From Sphingomonas bisphenolicum (lineage in GTDB: Bacteria > Pseudomonadota > Alphaproteobacteria > Sphingomonadales > Sphingomonadaceae), in assembly GCF_024349785.1 (NCBI RefSeq), contig NZ_AP018817.1:3667050-3731049 (forward strand): DNA of 64,000 bases. The letters are read 5' to 3'. Within the stretch, counting starts at the first letter, position 1. Each line of letters begins with the position of its first letter. Both the position numbers and the translations under genes were made by a program. The notes beneath the pieces were generated by a model. It made no database searches, was not told the DNA's origin, and worked only from the letters and a program-made list of their open reading frames with translations. Positions 59 to 48,329 of the stretch are shown piece by piece.

Positions 59-2968
59 TTACAAGATATTCTGCAGCACCCGTTCCCAACTACATGCCTT
101 CGCCAGTCGCCGCGCTTCCTCCGCCATGGCGTTCAGCCCGCCATCATCCTTCGCCACCAGCATCGCCGCCAGCGCCTTTTCCAATTCGGCTGCGCTACCG
201 TCATAGACAATACCGGCATCTCCCCCGCCCATGACTTCCCGGATCATGCCGGCTTCGGTAATCACCGTCGGCACGCCAAAGGTGAGCGCCAGCATCAGCG
301 ATCCACTCGTCAAAACGTTGCGATAGGGATAGACGGCGAAATCCGCCGCTTTCAGAAAAACCTGAAGTTCCGCATCGTCTATATACCGATCGACGATATG
401 GATACGCGTTCTTTCGAACGCGCTCAGCGGCGTAGCTAAATTTTCGATCGGGCTTTCCGGCGCCGCGCCGGCGATCAGCAACAACGCGTTGGGGCGTTGC
501 GCCAGCACCTTGCGAAACGCCTCAACCAACGTGCCGATGCCTTTATATTTACGCACCTGGCCATTGAACAGAATGACGTCATCGGCAGGCGCAAGGCCGA
601 GGTAGGAACGGGCCGCATCTTGCGATACCAAATCGGCATATGCCCCGACATAATGACCATGCCTGGCAATCAGCACCTTGTGTCGCGGAATGGGGAACAG
701 GGCCTCGACCTCAGCGATCGAATATTCGCTGTGCAAATGCAATGCATCGGCCAGTTCCGTCAGCTTTTTGGACAGGTTTACTTCAACTTCGCGATGTTCT
801 GCATCGTGCGATATGACATTGTGAATAGTCCACACGACCTTGCCGCCCAGCGTCTTGAATTTTTCCAGCTTGGCGAGGAATTCATTCGCGCTGGCGGCAG
901 CTTCCTGCTCGCTCATTCCTGCCTTGAACAGGAAATTGAGCCAATGGAGATGGAATATATGCTCTGCCGGGCGTTCGGATATCGTGATCATCTGCAACGC
1001 AGCGTCGATCGTCCCGGCGCAGAATTCGGCATCATTGGCATGGGGGGCATAGAGGAGGCGCTGATAAGGATTGGCCCGGTAATAGGGCCAGAACATAACG
1101 AGCGGCCGTCCCTCTGCCCGCTGATACGTAACCCGCCGCGGTTCCTTGGGATCAGCGATATGGATATCCCAGAAATGAGCCAAGCCGGATCGCGTCAGTG
1201 CTTCGCGCTGCACGCGGTAGGTGTTGGTCGTTTGGAATCCTTCATTGACGTTGGACGTGTTTTCGCCATGCCAACGACGCTGGTACAAAATCTCGTCGAT
1301 GTGATGGAATTTACCGACTTCCGACAATTTCAAGAAAATATCATAGTCGACCGCGTTGACGATATCCTCGCGAAATTTTTCCGTCCGCTCCCACGCCAGT
1401 TTGCGAAACATGCGAAAATGGTGCGCGATGGACGTGATCATCATCTTCTCTCGCGAGAAGACGGGCCAACTATATTCGTTCTTGAGGAAATTTTCGTCCG
1501 CGTCGATGCGTTCGCAAGAGCCATAGCAACAGGCGACGTCCGTATTCTCGTCCAGGAAATCGGCCAGTCTGCGGACGGCGCCCGGCTTTAGACGATCGTC
1601 AGAATCGAGCTGGCCGATATAGATGCCCCGCGCCATGGCGATAGCGCGGTTGGACGCAAAGCCGATGCCGCCATTTGCTCCGGTTGTCCAGCGCACCCGT
1701 GGTTCGTCGCCATAATGGCGTTCCAAAACCCCCAGCGTGTCGTCAGGCGATCCGTCATCGGCGATGCAGACTTCCAAATCCTGCATGTCCTGTTCGAGCA
1801 CGCTGTCGATCGCCCGGCGGATATATTTACCGGCTTTGTAGGCCGGAATGTAGATGCTGACCTTGGGCACCTCATGCGCGCCATCCGTCTTGCGATCCCA
1901 ATGGTTGGGGCAAAGCTGAACATAGAGCTTTGCGTCGGCAGCCCCTTGGCCTTTCTTGGCCGAGAAATCCCGAATGTTTCGGGTGGCGATAGGCTGAAAA
2001 TAGCAGCCCCTATTATAGAGACGGAAACAAAATTCGCGCCCCGCATGGTAGGCGCCACCGAACCGAGGCTCGAACAACCCGCCAACATTGCGGAACAAGG
2101 TGCTGGTGACAGCAAAATTTAGCCCCAGAACATCGCGAAACGGATAGCGCCTGTTAACGATGTTCTTGTGGGCGCTGGTGCAAAATGGGGTAGCCCCGGA
2201 ATCAGCCAGCGGCGGGATCAAAGTCTGCACCACCTGATCCGATATCTGGCCCATGTGCGCGATCCGCAAAAATGTCATGGGATCAAGATCGATTACGCCA
2301 CTGGTGAATAGCAGCAGTCGCGTATCGCCGCTGATCCGCCACAACAGCGCGTTGGCTTCTTCGCTGGGAAACGCAATCGCGTGGAATGTCACATCAAGCC
2401 CACGGGGCTTTTTCCACCCTGACGGCTTCTCGCCTAAAATATGAAGCCTTATTCGACCGGCATAGCTCTGGGCGGCGATTGAGGCGAGCAGCGAGGGGAT
2501 GCCTTCTCCCTTCTCATCGACATGAATGATATCGATCGGCAAAGCCGCTCCAGCGCTGCTGCGCCAATTGGCATATTCTTCGATGTACCGGAAATCGTTA
2601 CAATTTCCAACCATGTCCGGAAGCGCCAACCCAGATGGATAAGGCTTTGGAAAGCTTGCGCCGTCCTTGATGGATCGGAAAGGAGGATGGAGTGGTCCGC
2701 CGATACCCCGATTATAGTCGGAGGGAATATTGATTTTCCGAACATCATCATTGGTCGCGACTCCGTTGATGAGTGTTTCGAAGAACAGGAACAGGTCGCT
2801 TTCGATATTATCGTTATATCGGATCGTATCGAGAATCCGATTGGCTTTATAGCCCTGTCCCAGCTCACGGAGATCAATCGCGGCCAGCGCGCGCGCCCAA
2901 TGATTTCTTGGGTTGGCGGATATCTGGGTCACCGACCCGGCGATATGAGACATTCTGATCTCCGTCAT
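59..2968 (-). CDS. Three-domain glycosyltransferase (GT2-like, GT2, GT4)
   Basis: Predicted cytoplasmic glycosyltransferase of 969 residues for surface polysaccharide assembly. The N-terminal third (about residues 120-360) resembles a degenerate GT2 fold. A clear GT2 domain starts near residue 370 (VSIYIPAYKAGKYIRRAIDS, then ADDGSPDD and the D-x-D-like QLDSDDR). The C-terminal third is GT4-like, with an LHWLNF motif and a nucleotide-sugar region around LFNGQVRKYKG. A single protein could therefore add two or three sugars in sequence. It is the leftmost gene of the minus-strand group and follows the small methyltransferase gene by about 35 bases. Domain calls are from motif reading; donor and acceptor sugars cannot be told from sequence. 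Confidence 0.85.
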   Translation of the reverse strand: MTEIRMSHIAGSVTQISANPRNHWARALAAIDLRELGQGYKANRILDTIRYNDNIESDLFLFFETLINGVATNDDVRKINIPSDYNRGIGGPLHPPFRSIKDGASFPKPYPSGLALPDMVGNCNDFRYIEEYANWRSSAGAALPIDIIHVDEKGEGIPSLLASIAAQSYAGRIRLHILGEKPSGWKKPRGLDVTFHAIAFPSEEANALLWRISGDTRLLLFTSGVIDLDPMTFLRIAHMGQISDQVVQTLIPPLADSGATPFCTSAHKNIVNRRYPFRDVLGLNFAVTSTLFRNVGGLFEPRFGGAYHAGREFCFRLYNRGCYFQPIATRNIRDFSAKKGQGAADAKLYVQLCPNHWDRKTDGAHEVPKVSIYIPAYKAGKYIRRAIDSVLEQDMQDLEVCIADDGSPDDTLGVLERHYGDEPRVRWTTGANGGIGFASNRAIAMARGIYIGQLDSDDRLKPGAVRRLADFLDENTDVACCYGSCERIDADENFLKNEYSWPVFSREKMMITSIAHHFRMFRKLAWERTEKFREDIVNAVDYDIFLKLSEVGKFHHIDEILYQRRWHGENTSNVNEGFQTTNTYRVQREALTRSGLAHFWDIHIADPKEPRRVTYQRAEGRPLVMFWPYYRANPYQRLLYAPHANDAEFCAGTIDAALQMITISERPAEHIFHLHWLNFLFKAGMSEQEAAASANEFLAKLEKFKTLGGKVVWTIHNVISHDAEHREVEVNLSKKLTELADALHLHSEYSIAEVEALFPIPRHKVLIARHGHYVGAYADLVSQDAARSYLGLAPADDVILFNGQVRKYKGIGTLVEAFRKVLAQRPNALLLIAGAAPESPIENLATPLSAFERTRIHIVDRYIDDAELQVFLKAADFAVYPYRNVLTSGSLMLALTFGVPTVITEAGMIREVMGGGDAGIVYDGSAAELEKALAAMLVAKDDGGLNAMAEEARRLAKACSWERVLQNIL

Positions 2969-3002: not shown

Positions 3003-3653
3003 TTATTTTAAAATGGGCAAATCAGGGACATGATCATAGTCCACCTTATCCGAACTAAATGTAGCGTGCGTACATAGTTCGAGCAAAAGGTCTGTCGTCC
3101 ATTCAGGCCATTCCTGCGGCTCAATATGAAAGACCGCCATACGCCCTATTATGTCCGAAGGCTTCAAAAGCGCTTCGACAGCATGATATGCTTTACGATC
3201 GGCATAATCGTCAAAGAGAACGGTCATCGGTTGCTTGGCACGAAGACAAGCGTTGACCAGACAGGCCGCCCGGAAACGGCCATCGATTAACACGACTTCG
3301 GGATGCCGGAAAAAATTTTCTGTCCAGATGGACGTCGGGTACCGATAGAATTTACGCCAGGAACTGTCGTCCTTGGCGCGTCCCCATGCGCCCGTTTCGC
3401 CGATATCGACATGATAGATGATGACCGGCGACGGCAGGTCGGCCTCGTCGAAGCGGCGCTGCAGTGACAGTGCCCATTGACGGTCCGTCTCGACGCTGAA
3501 AATGAGCTTCCCCGCCGCGCTGCCCCCCAGCACGGTGGAACCACCCGATCCATATTCGAGGATGACGCGCGCCTTATCATAGGTCTCCCGCAAGAATTCC
3601 GCTTCCATGGACGGAAGCGTCAATGCGGGCCAGCCTCCCTCTATCGCGGTCAT
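3003..3653 (-). CDS. Small class I SAM-dependent methyltransferase-like protein
   Basis: Predicted 216-residue methyltransferase-like protein. The glycine-rich SAM-binding motif is ILEYGSGGST near residue 35, followed by an acidic strand (FSVETD) and a VLIDGRFRAAC stretch typical of the Methyltransf_24-like group. The ATG at 3653 is chosen because it overlaps the stop of the upstream coiled-coil methyltransferase gene (TGATG), which implies translational coupling; the reading frame is open further upstream but inside that gene. Its position between two polysaccharide genes suggests sugar or lipid-linked glycan modification. The substrate is unknown. Confidence 0.75.
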   Translation of the reverse strand: MTAIEGGWPALTLPSMEAEFLRETYDKARVILEYGSGGSTVLGGSAAGKLIFSVETDRQWALSLQRRFDEADLPSPVIIYHVDIGETGAWGRAKDDSSWRKFYRYPTSIWTENFFRHPEVVLIDGRFRAACLVNACLRAKQPMTVLFDDYADRKAYHAVEALLKPSDIIGRMAVFHIEPQEWPEWTTDLLLELCTHATFSSDKVDYDHVPDLPILK

Positions 3654-6600
3654 CAGGAAGCACCCTGCGCAAGCGCAGCGTTCCAGAGAGTAAGCCGTGA
3701 AGCGCGCTGATATCTTGGGCTTTCCCAATTGGAATTGGCAGGCTCCTGAGTCAGATCGACGGTTGACCGCTGCTGAAAATAATCAATTTCCGCGTTCAAC
3801 GCTTGGGTAATGGTATCGAACTGGATCAGGGCTTCGCGCAACGCTTCCGTCTCCTGAATCTGCAGCGCCAACTCGCCCTGGATCGTGGCAACCATGCTGT
3901 CGCGTGTGCTCAATGCGTCGTGGAGGGCCAACTCAAGAGCTTCCAGTTCACGATAGTCGCTGCCGGTTGCGGCTGGCCGATGGGCATCTATTTCCGCCTG
4001 CGCCTCTTCAGCAGCGACGAGCTTGTCCTGAACGAAGCGCAACTCCATCGAAAGCGCCTGGATAACATTTTCGCTTTGCTCCATCGCCTGCAGGAGCGCC
4101 CTCGTCCCTTCGAGATGCCTCGCCAGTTCCTCGCGCGTCGCGGCCTCTTGGGCATCCCGCTCCGCGAGCATATCATCAAATTCGGCAATCCTGGCCTGAT
4201 AGGCTTGCACCTCCGCATTCATTTGCTGAGCCGCCGCCAATTGGTCTTTAAGCTCGCCAAACTCGACCTTCAAAGACAAGAGGAGGTTCTCGCTATGCGC
4301 AAGGTCTTCCAAAAGAATCTTTGTCCCCTTAAGCTGACGCGAAAATTCCTCGCGTGCGGCGAGCTCTTGCGACTGCATATCCTCGGCGGCCTTGGTCAAT
4401 TCCGCCTGCAGCCTGGCATTGTCGTCTCGGTGCTTTGCCAGATCGGCTTCGAAACCGCCGATCGAGTCCGCATATTGCATGGACGCCGCCTGGAAAGATG
4501 CCTGCCCTTCTTCCATCGCCTGGGCGTGCGCGGCTCTTTCAACGTCCCGCTGCTCGCTCAAAATCGTGCAGCGCTGCTGAGCCTCGGCCAGTTCCCCGGA
4601 CAGGCGCACCAACTCTCCTTCATGGGTCGCAATCAGCGTTCTCAACTGGGAAACCGTGGATATCGCCGACTGTTGCGCCTCTTCAAGCTGGGCATATGCC
4701 ATCTCGCGACCCGCACGGTCGGCCTGGAGCGTCGCCGACTCTTGCGACAGACGCTCTACATCCGCGCCCCGCTCGTCAAACGCCGCCTTGAGGTCAGCCA
4801 ATGCAGAGCGATCGGTCTCGCGTGCGGCCTCCAGCGCCTGGAGCGCCTCCGCATCGGCCTGCTTGCTCTCCAGCAGTTCGTCCCGCTCGGAGCGCAGGGT
4901 GTTCGACTCTTGCGACAGGCGCTCGACCTCCGCGATCCTATCATCAAACGCCGCCTTGAGATCGGACAATGCAGAGCGATCGGTCTCGCGCGCAGCCTCC
5001 AGCGCCTGGAGCGCCGTCGCGTCGGCCTGTTTGCTCTCCAGCAATTCGTCCCGCTCGGCACGCAGCGTCTTCGACTCTTGCGACAGGCGCTCGATATCCG
5101 CGCCCCGCCCATCAAACGCCCCCTTGAGCTCGGCCAAGGCAGAGCGATCGGTTTCGCGCGCAGCTTCCAGCGCCTGGAGCGCCGTCGCGTCGGCCTGCTG
5201 ACGTTCCAGCAGGTCGTCCCGCTCGGCACGAAGCGTTTTCGACTCTTGCGACAGGCGCTCGACATCCGCGCTCCGGTCATCAAACGCCGCCTTGAGGTCG
5301 ACCGACGCAGAACGATCGGCCTCGCGCGCGGCCTCCAGCGCCTGTAGCGCCTTCGCGTCGGCCTGTTGACGTTCCAGCAGGTCGTCCCGCTCGGCGTTCA
5401 ACAGCGTCAAATTCTGTTTGAGCTGCGCAATCTGTCCACCGCGCTCGGCAAACAGCTTCTCCAGCTCCAGCAATTTGGACTGGTCGGCCTGGCGTGATTG
5501 GTGCGCTTCCCGGGCCTTGGCTTCCTCCGCCTTTCGATGACTTTCCAGATCATCGCGCTCAGTCCGTAAAGCCGTCAACTCCTCCGACAGGCGGTCAATT
5601 TGCCCCTTGCGCCTTACCGCCACCGTCTTGAGTTCGGTAAATTCTGATTGCGCCTTTTCATACTCATTCTGCAACTGCAGGATCGAGGCGGCGCCCTCAT
5701 CCAGTTGCACTTGCAGCCGGCCGGTTTCGTCGCGCGCTTTTTTGAGACGATATTTCAGACGGTCCGCCTCGATTCTCCGCATTTCCTCGGCGATTTGAAG
5801 ATCGAAGGACTTGGCCTGTAAATTGGCGATCTGCCGGTGACGCCCCTCATATTGGGCGCGGCTGTCTTTCAGTTGCTCCGCAAGCTTTTCATATTCTGCC
5901 TTCAGCTCTTCGAAATGGCGACCGGCCGAGGAAGCCCGCTCTTCCTGCGACTGGCTGGACATTTCGTAATAATTCGCTGCGCCCAAACGGGTGAACATCT
6001 CTATGAATGCCTGGCGCGCCTGATGCTCCGGATGATCCTCGGTCAGCGATACCAGGTCGCCTAGCTGTTCAATCACATTCTTCCCGTAGAGCAGGACGGT
6101 CATCCCCTCCCCGCCCGGAAGTTGAATAGTGGGCATACGCGCCGACATTCCGTCGATGAAAGCGGCCACATCCCCCTCTGCCTGCGCCGTTCCGTGGACG
6201 AGAATGATGCTTTCATTGGACAGCTTGCCCAGCCATTTTTCCTGGATCGTTTCGATGACTGTAGCCGCGGTCAAGCCCGCCCGGGCAGTCGCGACCATGT
6301 CGATCAAAAGAAAATCGATGGAAGCGGCGGCGAAATGCCTGTCGCCTCGCCCGATGCCATCGGTCAGGATGCGGGAAAAATGACCGTATAAATCCGTATT
6401 ACGGGAAACCAGCTTTGCTGGCGCGTCGACGACATCGCCCTCCCCGGCCCAGGTTCCCACAGCGTCGCAGCGGGCGTCGGGCTGCACCCGGTGAAGGCAT
6501 TGACATGCGGCCATATAGGCAACGCCCTCGCCCACGCCGATTTCGACATATTGGCGCGGACGCGAAAGCTCCAACACCCAGAACAGAAAGGGGATATGCC

Positions 6601-6823
6601 ACAATATGACATCATTTCTGGCATATTGCGGCTGCCAAAAAAGCGCTTGGACGCGACTGGATCGCGGCATGACGGCGTTAAGGGGGGCCGACAGCAGGCC
6701 CTCTTCAGTTGTTACCTTCCTCATCATCACCCCAGCGCCCGAATCAGCTTGCCAAGAATAGCCACCATTCCTCCACCGCTTGTCAATATTATCGGCCCAA
6801 TCTGGCCGTCTCGCTTCCGTCAA
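3653..6823 (-). CDS. Methyltransferase domain fused to a very long coiled coil with tandem repeats
   Basis: 1056-residue protein. Residues about 60-265 look like a class I SAM-dependent methyltransferase (YVEIGVGEGVAYMA as motif I; a FLLIDMVATA strand and an ILVHGT strand follow). From about residue 290 to 1035 the sequence is almost continuous charged heptad coiled coil rich in E, K, R, Q, A and L. Residues about 471-695 are four near-identical 56-residue repeats (LSQES..LRAERD core). Further on, a second, more diverged repeat family (E-L-A-x-x-L-x-x-T-x-A-L-L) recurs three times at spacings of about 73 and 85 residues. No membrane segment is seen. The architecture recalls WbdD-type chain terminators, but no kinase domain is present. 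A role in polysaccharide length control is inference from architecture and context. Confidence 0.8.
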   Translation of the reverse strand: MTEARRPDWADNIDKRWRNGGYSWQADSGAGVMMRKVTTEEGLLSAPLNAVMPRSSRVQALFWQPQYARNDVILWHIPFLFWVLELSRPRQYVEIGVGEGVAYMAACQCLHRVQPDARCDAVGTWAGEGDVVDAPAKLVSRNTDLYGHFSRILTDGIGRGDRHFAAASIDFLLIDMVATARAGLTAATVIETIQEKWLGKLSNESIILVHGTAQAEGDVAAFIDGMSARMPTIQLPGGEGMTVLLYGKNVIEQLGDLVSLTEDHPEHQARQAFIEMFTRLGAANYYEMSSQSQEERASSAGRHFEELKAEYEKLAEQLKDSRAQYEGRHRQIANLQAKSFDLQIAEEMRRIEADRLKYRLKKARDETGRLQVQLDEGAASILQLQNEYEKAQSEFTELKTVAVRRKGQIDRLSEELTALRTERDDLESHRKAEEAKAREAHQSRQADQSKLLELEKLFAERGGQIAQLKQNLTLLNAERDDLLERQQADAKALQALEAAREADRSASVDLKAAFDDRSADVERLSQESKTLRAERDDLLERQQADATALQALEAARETDRSALAELKGAFDGRGADIERLSQESKTLRAERDELLESKQADATALQALEAARETDRSALSDLKAAFDDRIAEVERLSQESNTLRSERDELLESKQADAEALQALEAARETDRSALADLKAAFDERGADVERLSQESATLQADRAGREMAYAQLEEAQQSAISTVSQLRTLIATHEGELVRLSGELAEAQQRCTILSEQRDVERAAHAQAMEEGQASFQAASMQYADSIGGFEADLAKHRDDNARLQAELTKAAEDMQSQELAAREEFSRQLKGTKILLEDLAHSENLLLSLKVEFGELKDQLAAAQQMNAEVQAYQARIAEFDDMLAERDAQEAATREELARHLEGTRALLQAMEQSENVIQALSMELRFVQDKLVAAEEAQAEIDAHRPAATGSDYRELEALELALHDALSTRDSMVATIQGELALQIQETEALREALIQFDTITQALNAEIDYFQQRSTVDLTQEPANSNWESPRYQRASRLTLWNAALAQGAS
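4718..5389 (-). repeat. Four in-frame 168-bp tandem repeats
   Basis: Four consecutive copies of a 168-bp unit inside the coiled-coil methyltransferase gene. The same CTTGCGACAG phrase recurs at 4741, 4909, 5077 and 5245, exactly 168 bases apart. Because 168 is 56 codons (eight heptads), gain or loss of a unit by recombination would keep both the reading frame and the coiled-coil phase. Confidence 0.93.
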
Positions 6824-6838: not shown

Positions 6839-7786
6839 CTATACCGGAACCGCTTCGATCAGACCAAGGTCGACCAAATCCGCCGTCCCCCTGTAACGCC
6901 GACTATCAGGATACATGAAGCTGAATCCTGAGAAACGTCTAATCGCCTCATCATAGACGCGATATTCGTAACTGCCTTGCCAATATTGCCCTCGCGCAAT
7001 CGCATCCGAAATATGCGCAAGCGCATCGCCATCGAACTTGAAATGCAACAGCGCGATCCAGCATGGGTCGTCCCCCAGAAGCGGCGGATCGACATAATGC
7101 GGGCTGACAAGAGTTTCATCTGCCGTCAAGCGAAACAGCGGATATTTCGTCATTTCCGGCATGAAATCAGGCTTGATGCGCGACAAGGTCCGCTGCCTGG
7201 GACCGCCCATTCGGCTGGTCAGCAGTTCCAGCCGGTTATCGCGATACCCTTCCGGATCGAAAAAGGGATAGGCCTGCAAAAAGGATTGGTCGGACCGACG
7301 ATGGTCGATCGCCAATGGCTTGTCGCTATACATGTCCAGCAAAAATCCCCGCACCCGCCGCAGGCCCGATCGTTCCGCAGCGGCAGCCAGTGATTGCAGA
7401 TTCTTTGTCCCGTGAAAGACGGCATGCTCGTCCGCATCCGCGAGCATGTACCAGCGGTCGCCATATTCTTCCACGAGGCGCATGATCCACCCGTGCTTCG
7501 CCTTAGCACTGAAAGGATCCAGCATCTCGAACAGATCGACATCGGCCTGGCTCGCCAGGAATTCACGCGAGCCATCGGTCGATCCGTTATCGACGAACAG
7601 GAAATGTGCCGCGCCCAGCCGCCGATAATGGGCCAGAAAATAGGGGAGTCGTCGAAGTTCGTTGCGGACAATGCAAATGACGATGGGTTGCCCGGGCCGA
7701 TCTGCGGCCAGCCTGGAAACGCCGACGCGAGTCAATCTGGCCGATCGAGCCAAGGCGCGAATTTCGTCCGCTTCCGTCGTCATCAT
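6839..7786 (-). CDS. Glycosyltransferase family 2-like protein (Glyco_tranf_2_4 type)
   Basis: 315-residue protein. It opens with an ICIVRNELRRLPYFLAHYR stretch, then FVDNGSTDGS and MLADADEH, which is the pattern of the GT2-like family in which a D-x-D variant (DADEH) coordinates the metal. This family is frequent in alphaproteobacterial polysaccharide clusters. It lies 15 bases upstream of the coiled-coil methyltransferase gene on the same strand, so the two are probably co-transcribed. Two ATG codons (7786 and 7783) are possible starts. The sugar transferred is unknown. Confidence 0.82.
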   Translation of the reverse strand: MMTTEADEIRALARSARLTRVGVSRLAADRPGQPIVICIVRNELRRLPYFLAHYRRLGAAHFLFVDNGSTDGSREFLASQADVDLFEMLDPFSAKAKHGWIMRLVEEYGDRWYMLADADEHAVFHGTKNLQSLAAAAERSGLRRVRGFLLDMYSDKPLAIDHRRSDQSFLQAYPFFDPEGYRDNRLELLTSRMGGPRQRTLSRIKPDFMPEMTKYPLFRLTADETLVSPHYVDPPLLGDDPCWIALLHFKFDGDALAHISDAIARGQYWQGSYEYRVYDEAIRRFSGFSFMYPDSRRYRGTADLVDLGLIEAVPV

Positions 7787-8945: not shown

Positions 8946-9591
8946 AAAGTCTCTCCCTATGCGTGCCAATACGCCTGGAATGATGGAGCGTCATGAAGAC
9001 ATAAAAGAAGCTGTATCACGGAAACTTTTCGGACCGTCCCACCTCCGCTCACTCTTTCGACATGCCAGATTTCCTCGCAAAACCCAATGGCAGACGATCA
9101 TCACAGCGGCTAGCCACCCTACCGAATGTCATGTTTCTAGTATGACTTATCAAATCGACAAGCCGTAAAATAAGAAGTTTAGGCGATGGAGATTCCGCTC
9201 CATATGGGCTTTTTATACTGACGCCCGTCCAAATTTGCGGTCACCTCACACCCATATGACCCTTTCAAAACACCCGGTTGGACGATCCAATCATCGCAGG
9301 ATGGACCAATTAAACGGCGAATATCAAGCCCAATTCGCCGCTCCAAAGACATTGTGGCCAGCACGCGCCCCTGCCCGACGGTTCACACGAGGAGTGGCGC
9401 CGCACATCGCAATCGCCCTTCGGCGATTGCGCGCCATGGAGGCGCAGTCCAGCCCTGAAAAACCTGGCAAACGGAACGCGCAGACGGCGGAAACAACCGG
9501 GCCCGACAGCGGCGCCGGCGACCAATACGCACTTGCCGCTCGCCCCATTGGTCTGCTACCGACCACGTCTATTACTTAACGGGGATAGCCA
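8946..9591. other. Divergent intergenic region of about 650 bases
   Basis: No convincing gene is seen between the leftward pyruvyltransferase and the rightward gene at 9592. Part of it (about 9120-9240) is noticeably AT-richer than its surroundings and probably holds the two divergent promoters. The open frames here have out-of-frame-type composition and no ribosome binding sites. Confidence 0.5.
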
Positions 9592-16532: not shown

Positions 16533-16764
16533 CATGTCACGGGATAACGGGAATGGGTGCGAGCCCCGACAAGCCTGTCCTGTGGCCCTGAATAGCTGCG
16601 CCCCCTTTTTGGCGCCCGCCTGATCGTGGGGCGCTGCATGAAAGGCGGAACGGCAAGAAACAGCAAGTGAGTCACACGCCAATCGACGGGAATGAGGTGC
16701 GGCAATGCAGGCGATGCATCCGCCTCGTTCGAATGCTGAGTTAACATTGCGGAAGCAGCAGAAA

Positions 16765-19700
16765 ATGCATATTTGGATAGACGGTCAGTGCCTTCAAACG
16801 GCCAGCAATGTTCGCGGCATCGGACGCTATGTCAGTGAACTGCTGCGTGCGCTGCACCTGCGGACCGACGTTCAGCTTACTGTGTCGTTCAATGCGAATT
16901 TGAAGCATCAGGCTGTCGCGGCCCGAACCTATCTGGCCGACACGCTGCCGAACGTTCGCATAGAAACATGGTATGGGACGGCCTCGGCGGGCGAGATTGC
17001 GCATGGCTACACGCCACAGCGCATCGCCGATGACCGCATCTTGGCGGCGCATATCAATGCCATTGCGCCGGATGTGGCGCTATGCCCCAGTTCCTTCGAG
17101 GGTTTTGAGGACAACAGTTCCCCCCTCGTCACCCTTGACGATGTCGAATGTCCCACCGCCTGTATATTTCATGATGCGATCCCGCACCGCTTCCCGGAAC
17201 GCTATTTCCATCACCCCAATATCGCACCGGCCTATTATCGCCGATTTTATTCTCTGCCGAAATATGACTTCGTCTTGTGCAATTCCGATTTTACGCAGGA
17301 CGAATATCGGGAACTGTTCGACAAGGATAATTGCGTTACGATCGGCGCCGGTCTGCCCGCAGATTTCGAGGAACTGCTCGCGGCCGACCTGACGAACGTC
17401 AAGCTGCCAAAGGCGCTGACGGCCTATATTCTCTATGTCGGCGGTTTGGACTGGCGCAAGAATGTCGGCATGCTCGTCAAAGCGCTGGCCCGTATCCCGG
17501 ATGTTCAAAGCGGCATGATGCAATTCGTGCTCGCGGGCGATCACAGCGAACCGGAACTTGCGCCACTCCGCAACCTGTGGGCGGCCAATGGCCTGCCTGA
17601 TGACGGCCTGGTCGTCACCGGATGGGTATCCGATGCCCAACTCGTCAAACTGTATCGAAACGCCAGCATAGCCGTTCAGCCCTCGCTGATGGAAGGCTTC
17701 GGCTTGGCCGCGCTGGAAGCCATGGCCTCCGGCTGCCCCTTCATTGCTGCGCGCGGCGGTGCGGTCGGCGAAGTGGTTGCCAGGGAAGATCTGCTGTTCG
17801 ATGGCCAGACGCCGGACGAACTCGCCAAGCTGCTGAGCCACATCCTGAAGGATACGTCCTTTCGGCAGGATGCCGTCGCCTTCGGCAAGCAACGCACGAA
17901 GGAGTTCAGCTGGGAAAAATCCGCGGAGATCACGGTATCGGCGTTGCGCGCCATGCTGGAAGAAAAGCTGGTATCAGCGCCTTCCCGCGCGCCGGCGATA
18001 GAGGCTCGCCCCGCGAACGCGGCGCCACCTCGACTGATCATGGACGTGACCTCGACGGCGCAAAGCACTTTGCTTTCCGGTATTCAGCGGGTCATCCATC
18101 GTCTCACGACGGCGTTGGTCAACAGCGATACGCCTTCAGTATCGGAGACTGTTCTCAGCTATGCCGATGATTCATCGGGATGGTATCGCATGAAGAACCT
18201 CAGCAATGCAGCGATCACAAGAAACCCGCTCGATAGCCTGCCATACTCGGCCGACGACAGCTATTTCCTGATCGACAGTTCCTGGGGATATCCGGAAATT
18301 CAGGGGCCGCGCCTGCTGAATGCCATGGCGATGGGCCAAACCGTGGTCCACGGCATTCACGATATCGGGCCGCTGACCAAACCGGGCATGACGATCGAAA
18401 GTATGCCGGCTGTCTTCAGACGATGGTTCGAATTCATATTGGGCCACTCCACCGGAATTATCTGCGTTTCGCGGGCCGTCGCGGACGAGGTTTACGCCTT
18501 GCTGGAAGCGATCGAGCTGCCGCGACCGATGAACGTGGGATATATCCGTCTGGGCGCCGATTTCAGTGCCGCGCCCGCGGATCCGGAATGGCTGGACTTT
18601 CTGGGCGACCGACCGACTTTCATGATGGTCGGGACGATCGAACCGCGCAAGGGGCACAGTATCGTCCTCGACGCATTTGAACGACTGTGGTCCCGCGGCG
18701 TCGATGTCAACCTGATGCTGATCGGCAAGCCGGGCTGGAACACCCGGATTCTGTACGAGCGCATCAAGGTCCATCCGGAGGCGGAACGCCGCCTTTTCCT
18801 GCGAGAAGAGGTCCGCGACGGGCAGTTGCGCGCTGCCTATAGCGCTGTCAACGCCTTGATCATGGCATCCTATCTGGAAGGATTTGGCTTGCCCGTGGTC
18901 GAAGCAGGGCATTTCGGTTGCCCGGTGATCCTCAGCGACATCCCGGTCTTTCGAGAGGTGGGGCAAGGGGCGCCGGTCGCCCAATATTTCGAGATGGGCA
19001 ATGCAGGCGCCCTGGCGCAGGTCGTCGAGGAGATGGCAGGACAGGACCGCCTGGCCTATCCCCAGGACGGAACAGCTTGGCCCACTTGGGAAGGAACCGC
19101 GCAGGAGGTGCGGGACATCATATTGGGCGACAACTGGTATCGCCGTTATCGCCCACGCAATCTCTCGCCCAATGCGGTGCCGGCGCTGATCGGCAACATC
19201 CGCATGCGTCAGCCGCTGGATCTGCCTGACCGCAAGCACAGCTTCCGGTATGTAGAAGGACCGATGGTGTCCGACGATGGCCGCCGGCTGCAGTTCATCA
19301 TTGCCTTGCGTAACGAGAGTTCGAAATTGTGGTCGAGCAATGGCCTGCCGGGCAAGGGCATGGAGATCAATATCGGCTCCCACATCGTTGCCGAAGATGG
19401 AGCGATGCTGGACTATGAAAATCCGCGCACGCCCATACCATTCGTGCTGCCGCCGGGCGATGAACTCTATCTCCCCATTTACGTCAATGCGGACTGGCTC
19501 GCGCGGGGGGCACGCTACGTCGATGTGGAGGTCGTGCAGGAAGCGGTGGATTGGTTCGGCACCACATTCCGCCTCGATCTGACGCAGCCGCCCGTCAGCC
19601 CCGGCAAAGACCGGGACGGTTCGATTGCGGACTTAAGGCCGATGCTGTTGCGCGAACCTTTTTCGGTTCCCGGCCAATCGGGCAAATTTCTCCTGCTAGG

Positions 19701-20013
19701 CTTGATGAACGCAACCCATCACGGCATCGACATGTCGGATCATGCATCCGGCGACGTCCTTCGTATCGCCATGCTGGACGACTCATCACGCTCGATCGGC
19801 GATTGCAAAATCGTCTCGAGCTTTTCCCGACTGGACCCTGCCGGCTATGGGCTCCTTACCGTGCAATGTCCGGCACGCGCTTTCGTCCAGGCGGATAGTT
19901 TGGCGATCCTGCTGGGCAACCAGGATCAGGTCGAATGGAGACTTAAGCTGGTGTCCGGGAAGATCAGCCGCGTATCGCAGGTAGAGCCCATTCCCGCCGA
20001 TCAGCCAGCCTGA
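16765..20013 (+). CDS. Tandem GT4 glycosyltransferase with C-terminal Ig-like module
   Basis: 1082 residues from ATG 16765 (MHIWIDGQCLQ). The first GT4 domain spans about residues 1-410 (VGGLDWRKNVG and SLMEGFGLAALEAMASGCP are the donor-binding and E-x7-E motifs). The second GT4 domain spans about 430-830 (MVGTIEPRKGH, SYLEGFGLPVVEAGHFGCP). The last 250 residues include a beta-rich module (LRNESSKLW, LPPGDELYLPI, VQEAVDWFG) of the type found beside polysaccharide enzymes. Two retaining GT4 sites in one chain resemble WbdA-type processive polymerases, so this is a candidate repeat-unit polymerase. The gene is convergent with the dioxygenase gene. Confidence 0.85.
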   Translation: MHIWIDGQCLQTASNVRGIGRYVSELLRALHLRTDVQLTVSFNANLKHQAVAARTYLADTLPNVRIETWYGTASAGEIAHGYTPQRIADDRILAAHINAIAPDVALCPSSFEGFEDNSSPLVTLDDVECPTACIFHDAIPHRFPERYFHHPNIAPAYYRRFYSLPKYDFVLCNSDFTQDEYRELFDKDNCVTIGAGLPADFEELLAADLTNVKLPKALTAYILYVGGLDWRKNVGMLVKALARIPDVQSGMMQFVLAGDHSEPELAPLRNLWAANGLPDDGLVVTGWVSDAQLVKLYRNASIAVQPSLMEGFGLAALEAMASGCPFIAARGGAVGEVVAREDLLFDGQTPDELAKLLSHILKDTSFRQDAVAFGKQRTKEFSWEKSAEITVSALRAMLEEKLVSAPSRAPAIEARPANAAPPRLIMDVTSTAQSTLLSGIQRVIHRLTTALVNSDTPSVSETVLSYADDSSGWYRMKNLSNAAITRNPLDSLPYSADDSYFLIDSSWGYPEIQGPRLLNAMAMGQTVVHGIHDIGPLTKPGMTIESMPAVFRRWFEFILGHSTGIICVSRAVADEVYALLEAIELPRPMNVGYIRLGADFSAAPADPEWLDFLGDRPTFMMVGTIEPRKGHSIVLDAFERLWSRGVDVNLMLIGKPGWNTRILYERIKVHPEAERRLFLREEVRDGQLRAAYSAVNALIMASYLEGFGLPVVEAGHFGCPVILSDIPVFREVGQGAPVAQYFEMGNAGALAQVVEEMAGQDRLAYPQDGTAWPTWEGTAQEVRDIILGDNWYRRYRPRNLSPNAVPALIGNIRMRQPLDLPDRKHSFRYVEGPMVSDDGRRLQFIIALRNESSKLWSSNGLPGKGMEINIGSHIVAEDGAMLDYENPRTPIPFVLPPGDELYLPIYVNADWLARGARYVDVEVVQEAVDWFGTTFRLDLTQPPVSPGKDRDGSIADLRPMLLREPFSVPGQSGKFLLLGLMNATHHGIDMSDHASGDVLRIAMLDDSSRSIGDCKIVSSFSRLDPAGYGLLTVQCPARAFVQADSLAILLGNQDQVEWRLKLVSGKISRVSQVEPIPADQPA

Positions 20014-21140: not shown

Positions 21141-23204
21141 TCAGGAACGGCGCGCGACACGCCAGGGTTCCGGGGATGCGCTATGCCGGACATGACGCAA
21201 TATCTCTTCCAGCGGCGGGTCGCGATAGCCGTCAAAGGGATATCCGCCGGTTGCAAAATGCGGGTTGTAACCGGGATCGCGCAGGCAGGCGTCGCCCCAA
21301 CCCATGTACAGCGTATGGAGTTCGCTCTGATCCCACTCGAGCATTTGCGAGGTCAGGTTCGCGCCGCGCGAAACCGACTCATAATGAGTCAAGATCAGTC
21401 TGGGATCATAGAGGATGACCCGTCCCAATTCGCGAAGCCGCAGGCACATGTCGATATCATTATAGGCTATGGCGAAATCCAGCTCATTGAAGCCGCCCAC
21501 CTGCACGAACAGCTGACGAGGCATGGCGAGAAAGGCGCCGGTCACCGCAGAAGTTGTGCGCAACCGAAGCCAACGCCCATGTGGCCCGCACTCATCGGCA
21601 TTCTGCCACCGCGCTTCATGCTGCGGCCCGTCTCCATCCAGGCCCAGGATAATACCGGCATGCTGAACGCCACCGGAAGGGTAAAGCAAGCGCGCACCCA
21701 CGGCGCCCACCTTATCGTCATTTTCCCAGGTTGCGATCAGCAGCGAGTCCCAATGGGATGATAGCATTTCGGTATCATCATTGAGGAACAACAATATCTC
21801 CGCATTTGTCTCCTGCGCCGCGACATTATTGGCCCGCGACCAATTGAACGGCTCATCGAAATTCAGGATGCGCGTCAACGGCCGCTTCGCCAACTGCCCA
21901 AGCAGCGCATGGGTTTCGGCATGTGCCGACCGATTGGAGACGATCAAAATCTCGATTTGCTGGGGATTATCCGCCTTGGCCAGCAAACTGGCTACGCAAC
22001 GTTCCAACAAGGCCGGATTGTCGCGCGTGGGAATAACGACGGCGATCGATCGGGCGGCGGCGCCCAATCCTTCCGGCATGGCGGAAGCGACGAAAGACAC
22101 CGAGCCGCCCATATTGGAGGCGAGGATACGCGGAATATGGGCCACTGTACCGCGCGCCGCGGCAGATCGCAGCACCGTCCTGCGATCGCCGCCGCCCGGC
22201 ACGTCGCCAAACGTCAGGAAGGCGGCGGGGCACACCAACGCGTCGTCGAACCAATAAGGATCATAGACCGGCTGCAGCACCGGGGCGCTATAGGATGCGC
22301 CATATTTCCAGTCCTGCGCCATATGGTCATGGTCGCAATAGGCGAGGGAACAGCCCGTCTCTCCGGCAGTCCAGCCGAACCAGGCCAATGCGTGCGGGTT
22401 TAGCACCGTTCCCGCTTCAAGATGGAGGATATATCCGCTTTCGTCGGCCCATGCTGCATCGATGAAATGGATGCGCGGCTCGACATGCGCCATGCTGCCG
22501 ATCGGGGATTCCCGCAGATCGGACGAAGACAGGACTTCCGCTCGCCAGTTCCACCGACTTTGCACGATCAGGCTGCGCAATGTCGCACGAAGCCGCGCAG
22601 GGGCCGCTCCGCGCGCATCGATCCTTATGCTCAGGCAATCAAGGCCGGCTCCCTCACCGGGAGGCGGGCCGATAATCGACTGCTTGCGAAAGGCATCATA
22701 GTCGAGCGCGGGAAAGATTCCGGCCTGTTCGACCTCGTCCCGCCAGATATTGGCTTGGTCCAAGCTCAGGCGCAGACCAGCCAGCGCATCGGCGATGGCG
22801 GCACGACCATGGGCGGCTTCCGGCACGGCTCCGCGCGCGCCATAGCGAAGAAGCTCCTCGCGAGCCGATCTCGATAGAGGGTCGATCCGCAACGCCTGGA
22901 CGAAAGCATCGATGGCCGCCGATCGCTGTCCTTGCGCCTTGAATGCAATACCAAGGCCCGTCCAGGCGGCCGCGGTGCCCGGCTTCAACGCCAGAACGCG
23001 ACGATAGGCATCCCCCGCCTCGACAGACTGGCCAGAGCGTCGCAGCGCATGGGCATATTGGAGCCATATGCGGCTGCTACGCCGCACGGTGCGGACCACC
23101 CGCCCCCAAGCGTCGGCGGCCAGCAGCCAATCGCGCACATCCTGTGTTTTCTTTGCCCTGCGGGACGCAAGGCGCGCGCTCGCGATGCCTAGAAGATTCT
23201 TCAT
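21141..23204 (-). CDS. TPR repeat-glycosyltransferase family 2 fusion
   Basis: 687 residues. Residues about 25-130 contain tetratricopeptide-like helices (EAGDAYRRVLALKPGTAAAW and the following AIDAFVQALRIDPLS). A GT2 domain occupies about residues 390-640: IAVVIPTRDNPALLERCVAS, LFLNDDTEML (D-x-D-like) and an YNDIDMCLRLRELG stretch that usually marks the acceptor side. The middle region resembles a second, weaker transferase-like fold. It lies 22 bases after kpsT on the same strand, so it is probably in the export operon. It belongs to the rhamnosyl/galactosyl-type GT2 group, but the sugar is not determinable. Confidence 0.83.
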   Translation of the reverse strand: MKNLLGIASARLASRRAKKTQDVRDWLLAADAWGRVVRTVRRSSRIWLQYAHALRRSGQSVEAGDAYRRVLALKPGTAAAWTGLGIAFKAQGQRSAAIDAFVQALRIDPLSRSAREELLRYGARGAVPEAAHGRAAIADALAGLRLSLDQANIWRDEVEQAGIFPALDYDAFRKQSIIGPPPGEGAGLDCLSIRIDARGAAPARLRATLRSLIVQSRWNWRAEVLSSSDLRESPIGSMAHVEPRIHFIDAAWADESGYILHLEAGTVLNPHALAWFGWTAGETGCSLAYCDHDHMAQDWKYGASYSAPVLQPVYDPYWFDDALVCPAAFLTFGDVPGGGDRRTVLRSAAARGTVAHIPRILASNMGGSVSFVASAMPEGLGAAARSIAVVIPTRDNPALLERCVASLLAKADNPQQIEILIVSNRSAHAETHALLGQLAKRPLTRILNFDEPFNWSRANNVAAQETNAEILLFLNDDTEMLSSHWDSLLIATWENDDKVGAVGARLLYPSGGVQHAGIILGLDGDGPQHEARWQNADECGPHGRWLRLRTTSAVTGAFLAMPRQLFVQVGGFNELDFAIAYNDIDMCLRLRELGRVILYDPRLILTHYESVSRGANLTSQMLEWDQSELHTLYMGWGDACLRDPGYNPHFATGGYPFDGYRDPPLEEILRHVRHSASPEPWRVARRS

Positions 23205-23226: not shown

Positions 23227-23895
23227 TCAATGCGTATGGGTCACTTTGTGATAATATTCATAACCCGCTTCTACCTCGTCGAACAATTCCAAGCGACCGC
23301 CGGAAATGACGCCCATCTTGTTGCAATGGTCGCGTATGAAGGAATTATCGTGAGATACGACCAGGAACGCGCGGTCAGCGCGTTTCTCGAACAGCTCGAC
23401 ATGGCATTTCTCATGAAAGCGCTGATCGCCGACGGCCGTGATCTCATCGATCAGGAAACAGTCGAACTCAATCACCATGGAGACGGCAAAGGCCAGGCGC
23501 GCCCGCATACCCGAAGAATATGTCTTGACCGGCTCCCGCAGATACCGCCCTAGCTCGGAGAAATCATCCACATAGTCGATTTTGTCACGATAATCGACGC
23601 CGTACACGCGACAGATAAACCGCAGATTATCCAGCCCCGTCAGCGAACTCTGAAACGCGCCGCCGAACGCCAATGGCCAGGATATGCTCATATCCCATTG
23701 GATTTTGCCCGATGTCGGCTGCTCGACGCCGCCCAACAAACGCACCAGTGTGGACTTGCCGGCACCGTTGCGGCCCAGAATGCCGACTTTCTCGCCTTTC
23801 TCGACACGCAGATTTATTTTGTCGAGCACCGTCACTAGCCCGGTGGAGGTGCGATAGCTTTTCGTTACGTCCCGCAACTCAATCACTGAGCACAC
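23227..23895 (-). CDS. kpsT: Capsule polysaccharide ABC transporter, ATP-binding protein
   Basis: ATPase of the exporter that moves lipid-linked polysaccharide across the inner membrane. Walker A is GILGRNGAGKSTL, the signature motif is YSSGMRARLAFAVS, Walker B is CFLIDEITAVGD and the H-loop is VVSHD. The 222-residue length matches KpsT/CtrD and lacks the C-terminal glycan-binding domain of Wzt. The start is GTG, either 23895 or 23886, both overlapping the end of kpsM. Confidence 0.92.
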   Translation of the reverse strand: MCSVIELRDVTKSYRTSTGLVTVLDKINLRVEKGEKVGILGRNGAGKSTLVRLLGGVEQPTSGKIQWDMSISWPLAFGGAFQSSLTGLDNLRFICRVYGVDYRDKIDYVDDFSELGRYLREPVKTYSSGMRARLAFAVSMVIEFDCFLIDEITAVGDQRFHEKCHVELFEKRADRAFLVVSHDNSFIRDHCNKMGVISGGRLELFDEVEAGYEYYHKVTHTH

Positions 23896-24694
23896 CCCTC
23901 CGTGCGATTACTCTGATCTGCAAAAGGCCGAAGGCCGTCAAAATCAAATTGACCAGCAGGACGTAGCCAAGATTGTGAATGGCCACGATCTTGGACCCGA
24001 AATAGCCTTCTCTGATATATTCGGTGCAATGGACCATGGGGATCCAGCCCACGACTTTTTGGAAAGCCGGCGGCGCCGCACTCATCAAAAAGCCAGCCCC
24101 GGATAATGGGAACATCAGGTAAGAGGCCGGATGCCAGAGCTTGTCGACCAGTTCGGAATGCTCCGCAAGCGTCCCCAACGTAATCGCGAGCGCCGCACCG
24201 AACCAGGCGAGCAATGTCCATCCGATGATGATTTTGAAGACATCTTCAGGTAAATCGATCAAGCCGACATAATTGAACGCAAGAGTCAGCACCAGGAAGG
24301 ACCCGGTTGCGCCCATCGCCTCCAGGATGAGCCGCGACATGAAGATATCGATGATCCGCACGTTGCGATGATACATCAGCGATGCATTGGGCTGAATGGC
24401 GCCGATGCATCGACCAGGCATGTTACGCCAGAGAAGAACACTGGAATAGCCGGTCAGCGCGAAAGCCGCGATCGGTAGCTGACTGGCATGTCCTCTACCT
24501 GTCGCAGACCATAGGGCGGTAACGCCCAGGGTGAACATCATGGGTTCCGCGAAGAGCCAGAAGAGGCCGATATTATGCCGGCCGTACCGGGTCAGAGCTT
24601 CGCGCATGAGAAGCGCGAAAATCACGCGCTTCTGCACCATCAGGGATTTAAAAAAACGCGTCAGCCCTCCAGCAAAATCCCAACCCATTATCAT
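23879..24694 (-). CDS. kpsM: Capsule polysaccharide ABC transporter, permease
   Basis: Integral membrane half of the polysaccharide exporter, 271 residues, ABC-2 type with about six membrane segments (for example IGLFWLFAEPMMFTLGV and the C-terminal LGYVLLVNLILTAFGLL). The YGRHNIGLFWLFAEP phrase is characteristic of KpsM/BexB/CtrC. The ATG overlaps the stop of kpsE (ATGA) and the end overlaps kpsT, giving a coupled kpsE-kpsM-kpsT operon. Confidence 0.92.
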   Translation of the reverse strand: MIMGWDFAGGLTRFFKSLMVQKRVIFALLMREALTRYGRHNIGLFWLFAEPMMFTLGVTALWSATGRGHASQLPIAAFALTGYSSVLLWRNMPGRCIGAIQPNASLMYHRNVRIIDIFMSRLILEAMGATGSFLVLTLAFNYVGLIDLPEDVFKIIIGWTLLAWFGAALAITLGTLAEHSELVDKLWHPASYLMFPLSGAGFLMSAAPPAFQKVVGWIPMVHCTEYIREGYFGSKIVAIHNLGYVLLVNLILTAFGLLQIRVIARRGVLSD

Positions 24695-25842
24695 TGGCGA
24701 TGCTCGAAAATGGCGGCCACGAGAAGCTGGAAGATGCCGTATATCACGAGGCCCAGCAGCAAGACCGAAACCACACCCTTAAGCCTCTTGGGGTAAAGGG
24801 CGGCATCCGGCTTGTTGGGCGCCACGATACGCTCGACATAGATTTGCTGGCGACGCGCCTCATTCTTGGCATCTTCCAGCGAGGCCATCGCGCTCGCCAA
24901 TTGCTTGGCCGCAAATTCGCTATCCATCTGGACACGCTCATAGCCCGCGACGCTGCCTGCGAGCGACTGGGCGCCTCCCGCAACCTTTTGCATCTCCGTG
25001 CTCATTTGCCGACGAATGCTCGCGACGCGCTCCTGCAAGACGGAAACCTGGGGATTTTCCGGGGTAAACTGCCTCAATTGATCAAGTTGCGTCTGATTGG
25101 CGATCAGTTCGTCCTGCAACTTCGTCACGAGCTGAATTTGAACGGCCGCCTGCTTTTCAGGGTCCACCACGCCGCGCTTGTTGCGATAGGTAGACAGCGC
25201 CACGGCTGCCGTCGCAGCCCGCGCCCTCGCCTCATCGACCTCCTTTTCCGCGTAGCGAACAAGGTCGGTCCGGCTACGCTGGTTCAGTCGATTGACGAGA
25301 CTTTCGCCCAGATTGAGCAGACGCCGGTTGATCTCGAAGGCATCGTCCGGCGTATAGGCCTGCACCTTCAGATGCGCGACGAATGTCCCGCCGTCATAAG
25401 TGGAATCCACCCGCTTGCTGAAATATTTGTACAGCGCTTCCTCACTGTCACTTCCCAGCTTACCAAAACGGTCGAATATCGAGATGGAAGAACGCGTAAA
25501 GGCGTTCGTCACCAGCCCATCCTTATTGACGTCCCGCAGGGCGTCGCGCGATTTCAGATATTCCTCGACCGCATGAACCTCGTCAGTCGAGCCTCCCGCC
25601 CCTTCACCGGCAAAAAAGGAAGCAAATCCGGTGACCGACTTCTCGCGCTGAGAACTTTTTACAACAAAATAGGAATCGGATGTATAAACATCGGATGCAA
25701 GCAATCCATAATATATAATAGCTATGGATGTTGGAATAACAACAATTGCCCAGAAGCTTGGCTTCAACTTGGAGAGATAATCGCGAAATCGGCTCAAGCG
25801 AACCCCGTCATTTGGATAGACAACGTCGTGCATCACAGGCAT
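24691..25842 (-). CDS. kpsE: Capsule export inner-membrane protein (KpsE/CtrB/BexC family)
   Basis: 383-residue periplasmic adaptor of the capsule exporter, anchored at both ends: an N-terminal membrane segment around WAIVVIPTSIAIIYYGL and a C-terminal one around VVSVLLLGLVIYGIFQLL. The periplasmic part is coiled coil (about residues 190-330), as in the polysaccharide co-polymerase family. It would link the KpsMT transporter with an outer-membrane channel, which is not found in this window. It is first gene of the export operon; the 200 bases upstream probably hold the promoter. Confidence 0.9.
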   Translation of the reverse strand: MPVMHDVVYPNDGVRLSRFRDYLSKLKPSFWAIVVIPTSIAIIYYGLLASDVYTSDSYFVVKSSQREKSVTGFASFFAGEGAGGSTDEVHAVEEYLKSRDALRDVNKDGLVTNAFTRSSISIFDRFGKLGSDSEEALYKYFSKRVDSTYDGGTFVAHLKVQAYTPDDAFEINRRLLNLGESLVNRLNQRSRTDLVRYAEKEVDEARARAATAAVALSTYRNKRGVVDPEKQAAVQIQLVTKLQDELIANQTQLDQLRQFTPENPQVSVLQERVASIRRQMSTEMQKVAGGAQSLAGSVAGYERVQMDSEFAAKQLASAMASLEDAKNEARRQQIYVERIVAPNKPDAALYPKRLKGVVSVLLLGLVIYGIFQLLVAAIFEHRQ

Positions 25843-29691: not shown

Positions 29692-30978
29692 TCAAGTTGA
29701 CGGACGGGAATTGGCAAGGGATTTACGGCCGATGGCGGGATGAGCGACGATCGTAGCGCCTGTAGCAGGTGTCCGTTTCCCAGCCAGACGGCGCACCGCA
29801 TTATCGACCAGCAACGTCAGCCCTTCTTCGCTCAGAAGACCACCATGGATAAGGCAACGATCCATCAGCACACGGCGGAATGCGGAATAGAGATCGTGAT
29901 CCATCTTTCCGGGCGTGGCCCAGAAGGCGTCGAGCGGACCGGTGTTGACGATTCCAGGCACCTTGTAGACCGCATGGCCGAGCACCGTGACAGGCTTGCC
30001 TTCGTTCAACGCCAATGTACCGACCGTGCTGTTGACGGTTACGACACCCTCCGCGTTGCGAACGAGTTCTGCGATGTCGCCTTCCTCCAGGTAGAAGACC
30101 CGGTCGCCTATGCCATATTTCGCCGCGAGCCTGCGCGTCAGCCGAGACCAGGACACCAGGCCCGGATCGAGCGGATGCCGCTTCACCACCAGCGCGACGT
30201 CATCAGGCGCATGGCGCGCAAAGCTCTTGAGGACGAAACGCAGCGCGGCGCGCATGTCGCCAAATGGCGAATGAATCCGAATCTGATAGTCCGAATTGAG
30301 CTGCAACGGCAGCGCGAAATAGGGACGGCCTCTGACCTTCTCCCATTCCTTCAGCGACTTGGCCGCGTCATGCTTGCCCACCAGCAGCTTATAGGTCCAT
30401 GCCACTGATTCCATGATGAAACTATGTGGCCGATGCGTGCGGTAATAGGGGAAAAGCGGCCGCATCAATGCGGACGCCATGCCGTTGCGCATGGTGTTGC
30501 GCGCACGCGCGTGAAAGGTCGATGGCACGGGCGGAAAAGTCACCTCCGCCCGATCCAGCTTCCGGGCTTCGTCCAAATACCATTGCGGATCGAGCGGCAG
30601 GGTCGAATTGCCGTTCACGCCATCATCCTGCAACGTCAGGAAGTCGGGACGGATATACCCTTCTTCGACGACATGTACCCGCACGGACCGCAATCTGGCC
30701 ATGCCGTGCGCGGAGGCATGATAGGGTCGGCAGTCGCCGTAGAGGATAAGGTCGGTCACGCCATGGTTGACGATGAAATCGTCGAAAAACAGAGGCCAGT
30801 TGCGAAACGTGCCGCGATAATCGCTGGCGTCACCCGGCCAGTCGACTTTGTCGCCGCCATTTATATTGATCCGCAGCGCGCTATGTCCCCGCGCGCGCAA
30901 GGCATCGGCCAGCATTGCAAAATAGGGGCCATGCGGGCCCTGCAGGAAGAGAAATGTCCGGATCGAGGCGTCAGTCAT
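29692..30978 (-). CDS. kpsS: Capsule polysaccharide Kdo transferase KpsS
   Basis: 428-residue KpsS-family protein, expected to start the Kdo linker on the phosphatidylglycerol acceptor of an ABC-exported capsule. The N-terminal FLFLQGPHGPYFAMLADAL, ILYGDCRPYH, VVEEGYIRPDF and LVVKRHPLDPG segments are typical of the Capsule_synth family; the VTVNSTVGTLALNEGKPVTVLG stretch is its conserved C-terminal part. The start overlaps the stop of kpsC by eight bases, giving a coupled kpsC-kpsS pair. Confidence 0.9.
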   Translation of the reverse strand: MTDASIRTFLFLQGPHGPYFAMLADALRARGHSALRININGGDKVDWPGDASDYRGTFRNWPLFFDDFIVNHGVTDLILYGDCRPYHASAHGMARLRSVRVHVVEEGYIRPDFLTLQDDGVNGNSTLPLDPQWYLDEARKLDRAEVTFPPVPSTFHARARNTMRNGMASALMRPLFPYYRTHRPHSFIMESVAWTYKLLVGKHDAAKSLKEWEKVRGRPYFALPLQLNSDYQIRIHSPFGDMRAALRFVLKSFARHAPDDVALVVKRHPLDPGLVSWSRLTRRLAAKYGIGDRVFYLEEGDIAELVRNAEGVVTVNSTVGTLALNEGKPVTVLGHAVYKVPGIVNTGPLDAFWATPGKMDHDLYSAFRRVLMDRCLIHGGLLSEEGLTLLVDNAVRRLAGKRTPATGATIVAHPAIGRKSLANSRPST

Positions 30979-32599: not shown

Positions 32600-32722
32600 G
32601 GGCAGGCCTGCCACGCCAGCGCCAGAGATCCTGTCCTGGCTCGATCAACTTGCCCCCATCCAGCGCAAACGGCCGGTCTTTCAATCGGTTCTACACTTCC
32701 ATGCGGGCTGCGTCGGCGACCG

Positions 32723-47918: not shown

Positions 47919-48329
47919 CGACAAGGATAAATCAGATGAAATCCTACATTGGAAGAGGGATTTTGGGTTGGAAGGTCGCCGTAGTTTTCATGCCCTCTCA
48001 ACAGCGCGAAAACGACCGGAGGCCTCTTTCCGCTTTATCTCCGCGTTCTCCGCACGATTAGATTTTTTTCGCGCGGAGGCGCGGAGACGTGACGATATCG
48101 GCTTATCTTTGAATGGCAAAAAGGGTGGAGAGCGGAACGTCGCCTCTTGGGAGCACTGCGATATGAAACAGACCTTACCCGCCTGACCCGGCGTCACGAT
48201 ATGCAGGAATGTTGCCTCGAAAACCTGCGCGAACCCTGGGAGATCATCTGCGATGTCCTCGGGCGATCGTTTTGGATCGAGTTCTCCGATGATGGCGAGG
48301 GATCGCTGTTCAGGTTGCGGTGGCTGTGA
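47919..48329. other. Intergenic region with a long hairpin
   Basis: About 410 bases. Positions 48038-48053 and 48073-48087 pair to form a TCTCCGCG..CTCCGC hairpin around an AT-rich loop, the look of an interspersed palindrome. A 60-codon plus-strand frame (48147-48329) has no ribosome site and is not called. The remainder shows nothing recognisable. Confidence 0.5.

Follow-up and report, generated by a model that had tools for sequence, protein, structure and literature searches.

To our knowledge, how the chains of Kps-exported capsules get their length is largely an open matter, and the locus described here raises the question of whether a long coiled coil could set it. The locus lies in a window of 64,000 nucleotides of Sphingomonas bisphenolicum (contig NZ_AP018817.1, positions 3,667,050 to 3,731,049; feature coordinates below count from the first letter of this window), and the gene in question (3653..6727, minus strand) encodes a methyltransferase-like head domain followed by a very long coiled coil. 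A preliminary description of the sequence had proposed that the protein may act as a polysaccharide length ruler in the manner of WbdD of Escherichia coli O8/O9a. In the WbdD system the length of the coil sets that of the O-antigen (PMC5082667, PMC11231755), and the terminating enzyme sits at the coil tip, where chains are capped only after they have reached a minimum length (PMC11231755). The window gene and its relatives combine this architecture with a heptad-type coil period, tandem repeats, natural variants in copy number and length, a capsule setting and, in the window's branch, a degenerate head and a linked gene, orf3003, for a second methyltransferase-like protein. We propose, tentatively and at slightly less than an even chance, that the coil protein is a WbdD-like ruler that sets capsule chain length, the cap likely being supplied by the separate methyltransferase.

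The open reading frame first described runs to 6823. The start was placed at the ATG at 6727, which matches the start of P0002 (P0003 and P0005 begin one codon later), giving a protein of 1024 residues. Structure prediction of the protein alone, as had been suggested, yielded a class I O-methyltransferase fold for residues 1-217 (6077..6727, minus strand; model and PDB matches) and a continuous helix over residues 235-387, the model reaching residue 387 only. A coiled coil is predicted for residues 234-917 (3977..6028, minus strand), a proline-free stretch of 684 residues. Its strongest hydrophobic period, scanned from 2.2 to 8 residues with bulky hydrophobics only, is 3.50 residues and was matched by none of 300 shuffled sequences. 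Counting alanine as hydrophobic was rejected, as it hid the heptad signal of this coil (2 of 27 scanning windows pass), which bulky-only counting shows clearly. The short coil of the relative P0007 gave a weaker signal by bulky-only counting, with nine of 300 shuffles equally strong and the strongest period elsewhere. If fully helical and straight (0.1485 nm per residue), the window coil would measure about 102 nm as against about 20 nm for WbdD (PMC5082667).

Within the coil lie four tandem units of 168 bp (4728..5395, minus strand), each coding for 56 residues or eight heptads; this was the single array detected by Tandem Repeats Finder in the first 12 kb of the window. Natural variants differ by whole units. 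The relatives P0003 and P0004 agree at all 897 aligned residues; exactly one 56-residue unit separates them, apart from the annotated start of P0004, which is shorter by 70 residues. In a DNA-level search at least 17 of 5,426 E. coli genomes matched, 13 over at least 80% of the query. Eight annotated E. coli loci, chosen from 17 records so as to cover the variation, all have a KpsT gene of 651 bp and a KpsE gene of 1203 bp, and their coil gene comes in seven lengths from 2451 to 2754 bp. The proteins of strains PSJ-12 and S1-ZIM-01-A are identical at 811 of 816 positions and show one clean difference of 96 residues, strain ET350 carries a perfect duplication of 77 residues, and a further event of 32 residues was seen among the E. 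coli alleles.

Length also varies over greater distances. P0007-P0009 have similar heads (48-52% identity over the aligned part), yet are only 492-546 residues long; coil length therefore varies widely around a conserved head. Total lengths range from 492 residues (P0007) to about 1344 (L041), and relatives, several of them adjoining capsule exporters, have lengthened their coils with units other than that of the window. A scan of GTDB genomes added 19 loci, the most repetitive being those of Microbulbifer (open frames of 1221 and 1344 residues, 45-residue unit) and Shinella (915 residues, 46-residue unit); L038 is truncated by a contig end, and the lengths given for L034 and L035 also count sequence upstream of the start. 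Plasmids searched at the protein level gave 44 matching records, and among the five examined the same architecture was found in Jannaschia and Leisingera, with a shorter annotated version in Paracoccus. A scan of genome contigs with P0001 as sole query gave no match. Side-by-side head-plus-coil genes were seen in G035 (C8:236193-239015) and G866 (C6:4738-7116), and their products may perhaps form mixed coils.

Repeats were present in 23 and absent from 39 of 62 proteins scanned, and in none of 186 shuffled sequences. Eighteen distinct units were distinguished, shared events being counted once by judgement and related pairs (81 residues in L034, 78 in L035) being included. Eight are multiples of seven (56, 35, 56, 77, 28, 14, 105 and 21 residues), so that the idea that all repeats are heptad multiples was dropped. 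Six are of the form 7n+4 (32, 81, 32, 81, 46 and 60 residues), the usual stutter of coiled coils; the others are 7n+1 (78, 64) or 7n+3 (45, 24), with none at 7n+2, 7n+5 or 7n+6. This bias towards coil-compatible values (chi-square p = 5e-4 on 18 units, with small expected counts) implies that the coil stays continuous while its length changes. It reflects constraint on the coil and is not by itself proof of a functional length.

The window head retains motif I (EIGVGEG) and has lost the motif II acid, the DGxH histidine and the HD aspartate, that is, three of four catalytic positions. The preliminary description had named a fold lacking the residues that bind S-adenosylmethionine (SAM) as an outcome that would count against it, and such a loss is found here in part. 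The Methyltransf_24 profile (PF13578) scores the window protein at 20.4 bits, under the curated cut-off of 26.3, as against 92 bits for an E. coli relative. Heads fall into two apparent classes, intact and degenerate, since none of 72 aligned heads has exactly three of the four positions; L007, L027, L030 and L032 were left unclassed, and P0004 and the Paracoccus protein, which lack the anchor, stand outside the head table, the Paracoccus record being classed as degenerate by eye. The E. coli heads are intact. PDB sequence searches with P0001 found no relative, and a search with the head profile A2 gave one chance match only (E = 0.51). WbdD was not among the 50 fold matches listed, which has no bearing on relatedness.

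The stop codon of the coil gene overlaps the start (TGATG) of orf3003 (3003..3653, minus strand), which encodes a predicted methyltransferase of 216 residues. It matches PDB 3cvo (SPO2022 of Silicibacter pomeroyi) in sequence and fold and keeps the SAM/methyltransferase motifs. With three of four catalytic positions lost from the fused head and such motifs kept in the adjacent protein, capping is probably not the work of the fused head, judging from sequence. An orf3003 relative was found in 17 of the 26 genomes or records whose heads are degenerate and in 0 of 10 with intact heads (Fisher p = 4.4e-4 by genome, a test that ignores shared ancestry); constant presence was ruled out by the nine that lack it. 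The count search excluded the E. coli records behind L013, L015 and L017. In a phmmer search of 20-27 kb pieces of L008, L013, L015 and L017 no orf3003 was among the matches listed, and literature matches listed for SPO2022/3cvo held nothing relevant. In genome G010, locus L070 (1495-3177, minus strand) encodes what looks by eye like a glycosyltransferase joined to an orf3003-type methyltransferase domain, an arrangement that would be consistent with this domain acting on glycans.

The setting is that of an ATP-binding cassette (ABC)-dependent Kps capsule locus, homologues of KpsM, KpsT, KpsE, KpsC and KpsS all being found on the minus strand: a KpsT-like ATPase of 222 residues with the ABC ATPase domain only (23227..23895), a KpsM-like permease (23879..24694), a KpsE family export protein (24691..25842; TIGR01010, E = 9.8e-105, below the curated cut-off), a KpsS-like protein with a Capsule_synth domain (29692..30978) and a KpsC-like protein with two Capsule_synth stretches (30971..32614). 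The earlier claim of a methyltransferase fold joined to a long coiled coil in a capsule-export locus is confirmed by the predicted fold, the 3.50 period and these genes. Of the 26 genomes or records that carry a head-plus-coil gene, 25 have a KpsE family protein, within 20 kb of the gene in 11; of 19 searched, 9 have a KpsC/S family member within 30 kb. On E. coli plasmids the coil gene is directly downstream of KpsD-M-T-E-like genes, and the E. coli relatives immediately follow the KpsE-like gene. KpsC-like frames are 557-583 residues long in the window, G035, G449, G864 and G873 as against 689-730 in W01 and G868-G872.

In the proposed mechanism the C-terminal end of the coil would be located at the membrane, together with the glycosyltransferases, and the head would be held about 100 nm away by the coil, so that capping of the growing chain end would become possible only once it reached the head. 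The degenerate head would likely recruit orf3003, which would add a terminal methyl group; in the window's branch catalysis was probably handed to orf3003, the old domain being kept as a dock. Modal chain length would then change whenever whole coil units were gained or lost. The greater length of capsule chains is in keeping with a longer arm. Of the original proposal of a capsule ruler, then, the ruler itself has gained support from coil-length variants in near-identical alleles and from capsule-type settings in several lineages, while the fused head as capping enzyme probably does not hold.

Were the ruler to carry its own cap, the fused head would still methylate the chain end as O8 WbdD does, and orf3003 would only decorate repeat units. 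Motif I is indeed kept in the window's clade, and intact heads do occur where no orf3003 was found; the three lost catalytic residues and the division of heads into two apparent classes, with no intermediate at three positions, make such a cap quite improbable for the window protein. A scaffold is somewhat easier to credit, although still unlikely: here the coil would gather glycosyltransferases and exporter into one complex, and its exact length would be irrelevant. Coiled-coil terminators do double as membrane-associated scaffolds (PMC11231755), and a 2026 E. coli typing paper does not expect coil-length variation, seen in the putative methyltransferase genes of many group 3 clusters, to be critical (PMC13171606). 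This is countered by the lengthening of the coil in several lineages by different whole units and by the wide range of lengths, which suggests tuning but might also come from drift under loose constraint. Pure repeat drift, in which units come and go by slippage or recombination and have no function in length, would explain why only copy number has changed between P0003 and P0004, their shared sequence being identical. We judge it very unlikely in view of the bias in unit lengths, which places the coil under constraint while saying nothing on its length.

Several observations weigh against the ruler with a separate cap. The window tail has no clear membrane helix and an unremarkable hydrophobic moment (analysis of its amphipathicity gave no clear signal), and the tail motif SW[RK]xTxPxR, present in 32 of 73 relatives, is absent from the window's clade; L020, L027, L030 and L032 were excluded from this count. 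FDxxWY-type repeats, which replace or accompany that motif, end the coil proteins in 15 of 73 (for example at the C-termini of L008, L041 and L045), and no Pfam family covered the FDxxWY/SW[RK]xTxPxR C-termini of three such proteins scanned. Further points on the same side are that 9 of the 26 genomes or records whose heads are degenerate, and all four unclassed ones, lack orf3003, that 10 of the 18 repeat units deviate from an exact multiple of the heptad, that long coils tolerate insertions and deletions for structural reasons alone, and that the difference between P0003 and P0004 could come from assembly collapse. In 15 of 26 cases no KpsE was shown within 20 kb of the gene; six of these loci lie on contigs under 16 kb, in G865 and G867 KpsE is on the same contig at a distance of about 60 kb, and record W03 has none. 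The KpsT-like protein, an ATPase domain only, lacks the carbohydrate-binding module of the O8/O9a exporter ATPase; cap-reading export as in O9a is therefore absent. The family is also sparse, occurring in one of 93 other genomes of the genus, and the ABC-exported capsule of Hib reportedly lacks a chain-terminating residue (PMC11231755).

Compared with known systems, the window protein resembles WbdD in its N-terminal methyltransferase fold, its extended coil and its place in an ABC-exporter polysaccharide locus. The missing kinase, once taken to set it apart, does not do so, because O8 WbdD is itself a simple methyltransferase without kinase (PMC3482155). It differs from WbdD, besides coil length, in the presence of KpsC/S and KpsE, the ATPase-only KpsT, the tandem repeats and the degenerate head with a separate methyltransferase-like protein. 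In Klebsiella pneumoniae O7 ORF6, O4 ORF7 and O12 WbbB a terminator likewise sits at the far end of a coil, but these proteins serve O-antigens, and ORF6 of O7, which shares the N-terminal methyltransferase, adds a kinase, a binding module and fused glycosyltransferases (PMC11231755). The putative methyltransferase with variable coil of E. coli group 3 capsule loci, compared here by description and not by K-type, shares both architecture and setting (PMC13171606, PMC10433991); Hong et al. place a methyltransferase gene after region 1 (PMC10433991), and, in contrast to the present proposal, the coil-length passage of the typing paper offers no ruler reading (PMC13171606). Heptad repeats (RLKTQDS) also tune NeuO, the O-acetyltransferase of the K1 capsule, through their copy number, yet these seven-residue repeats are assumed to be unfolded and raise activity, with no ruler involved (PMC3046976).

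A coiled-coil terminator is regarded as a hallmark of ABC-dependent O-antigen synthesis, and since the termination strategy is called widespread and used for different polysaccharide classes, the general idea beyond O-antigens is already in print (PMC11231755). Among the matches listed, judged on titles, abstract beginnings and some passages, and with most subscription papers outside the scope, no paper was found that puts forward a coil as the ruler of a Kps capsule; a literature search linking E. coli plasmid capsules with phage-plasmids gave no paper. What is added to prior work is the number of units in the arm as a natural variable and, probably, the transfer of catalysis to orf3003 in the window's branch.

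Around the coil gene the same run continues downstream with a multidomain glycosyltransferase (GT2 and GT4; 59..2968, minus strand), and the next gene upstream encodes a GT2-like glycosyltransferase (6839..7786, minus strand). A tandem GT4 glycosyltransferase of 1102 residues (16705..20013, plus strand) is the candidate polymerase, and a TPR and GT2 protein is encoded at 21141..23204 (minus strand). Pyruvyl transferase, DUF2264 and PhyH-like genes (7902-8969, 10865-12067 and 20049-21038) suggest an unusually decorated polymer. A 2-kb block at 48001-50000 has 54% G+C between blocks of 66% and 68%.

In its widest form, doubtful but worth stating, the proposal is that many Proteobacteria may set capsule length by a repeat-number dial on a ruler of up to about 150 nm, with a dead methyltransferase tip docking a live terminator in the window's branch. 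If the coil is a ruler, natural alleles of an environmental Sphingomonas relative and of E. coli, which already differ from one another by complete coil units, would offer suitable pairs for testing it, and the split between head and methyltransferase would, if true, be a new way to build a terminator.
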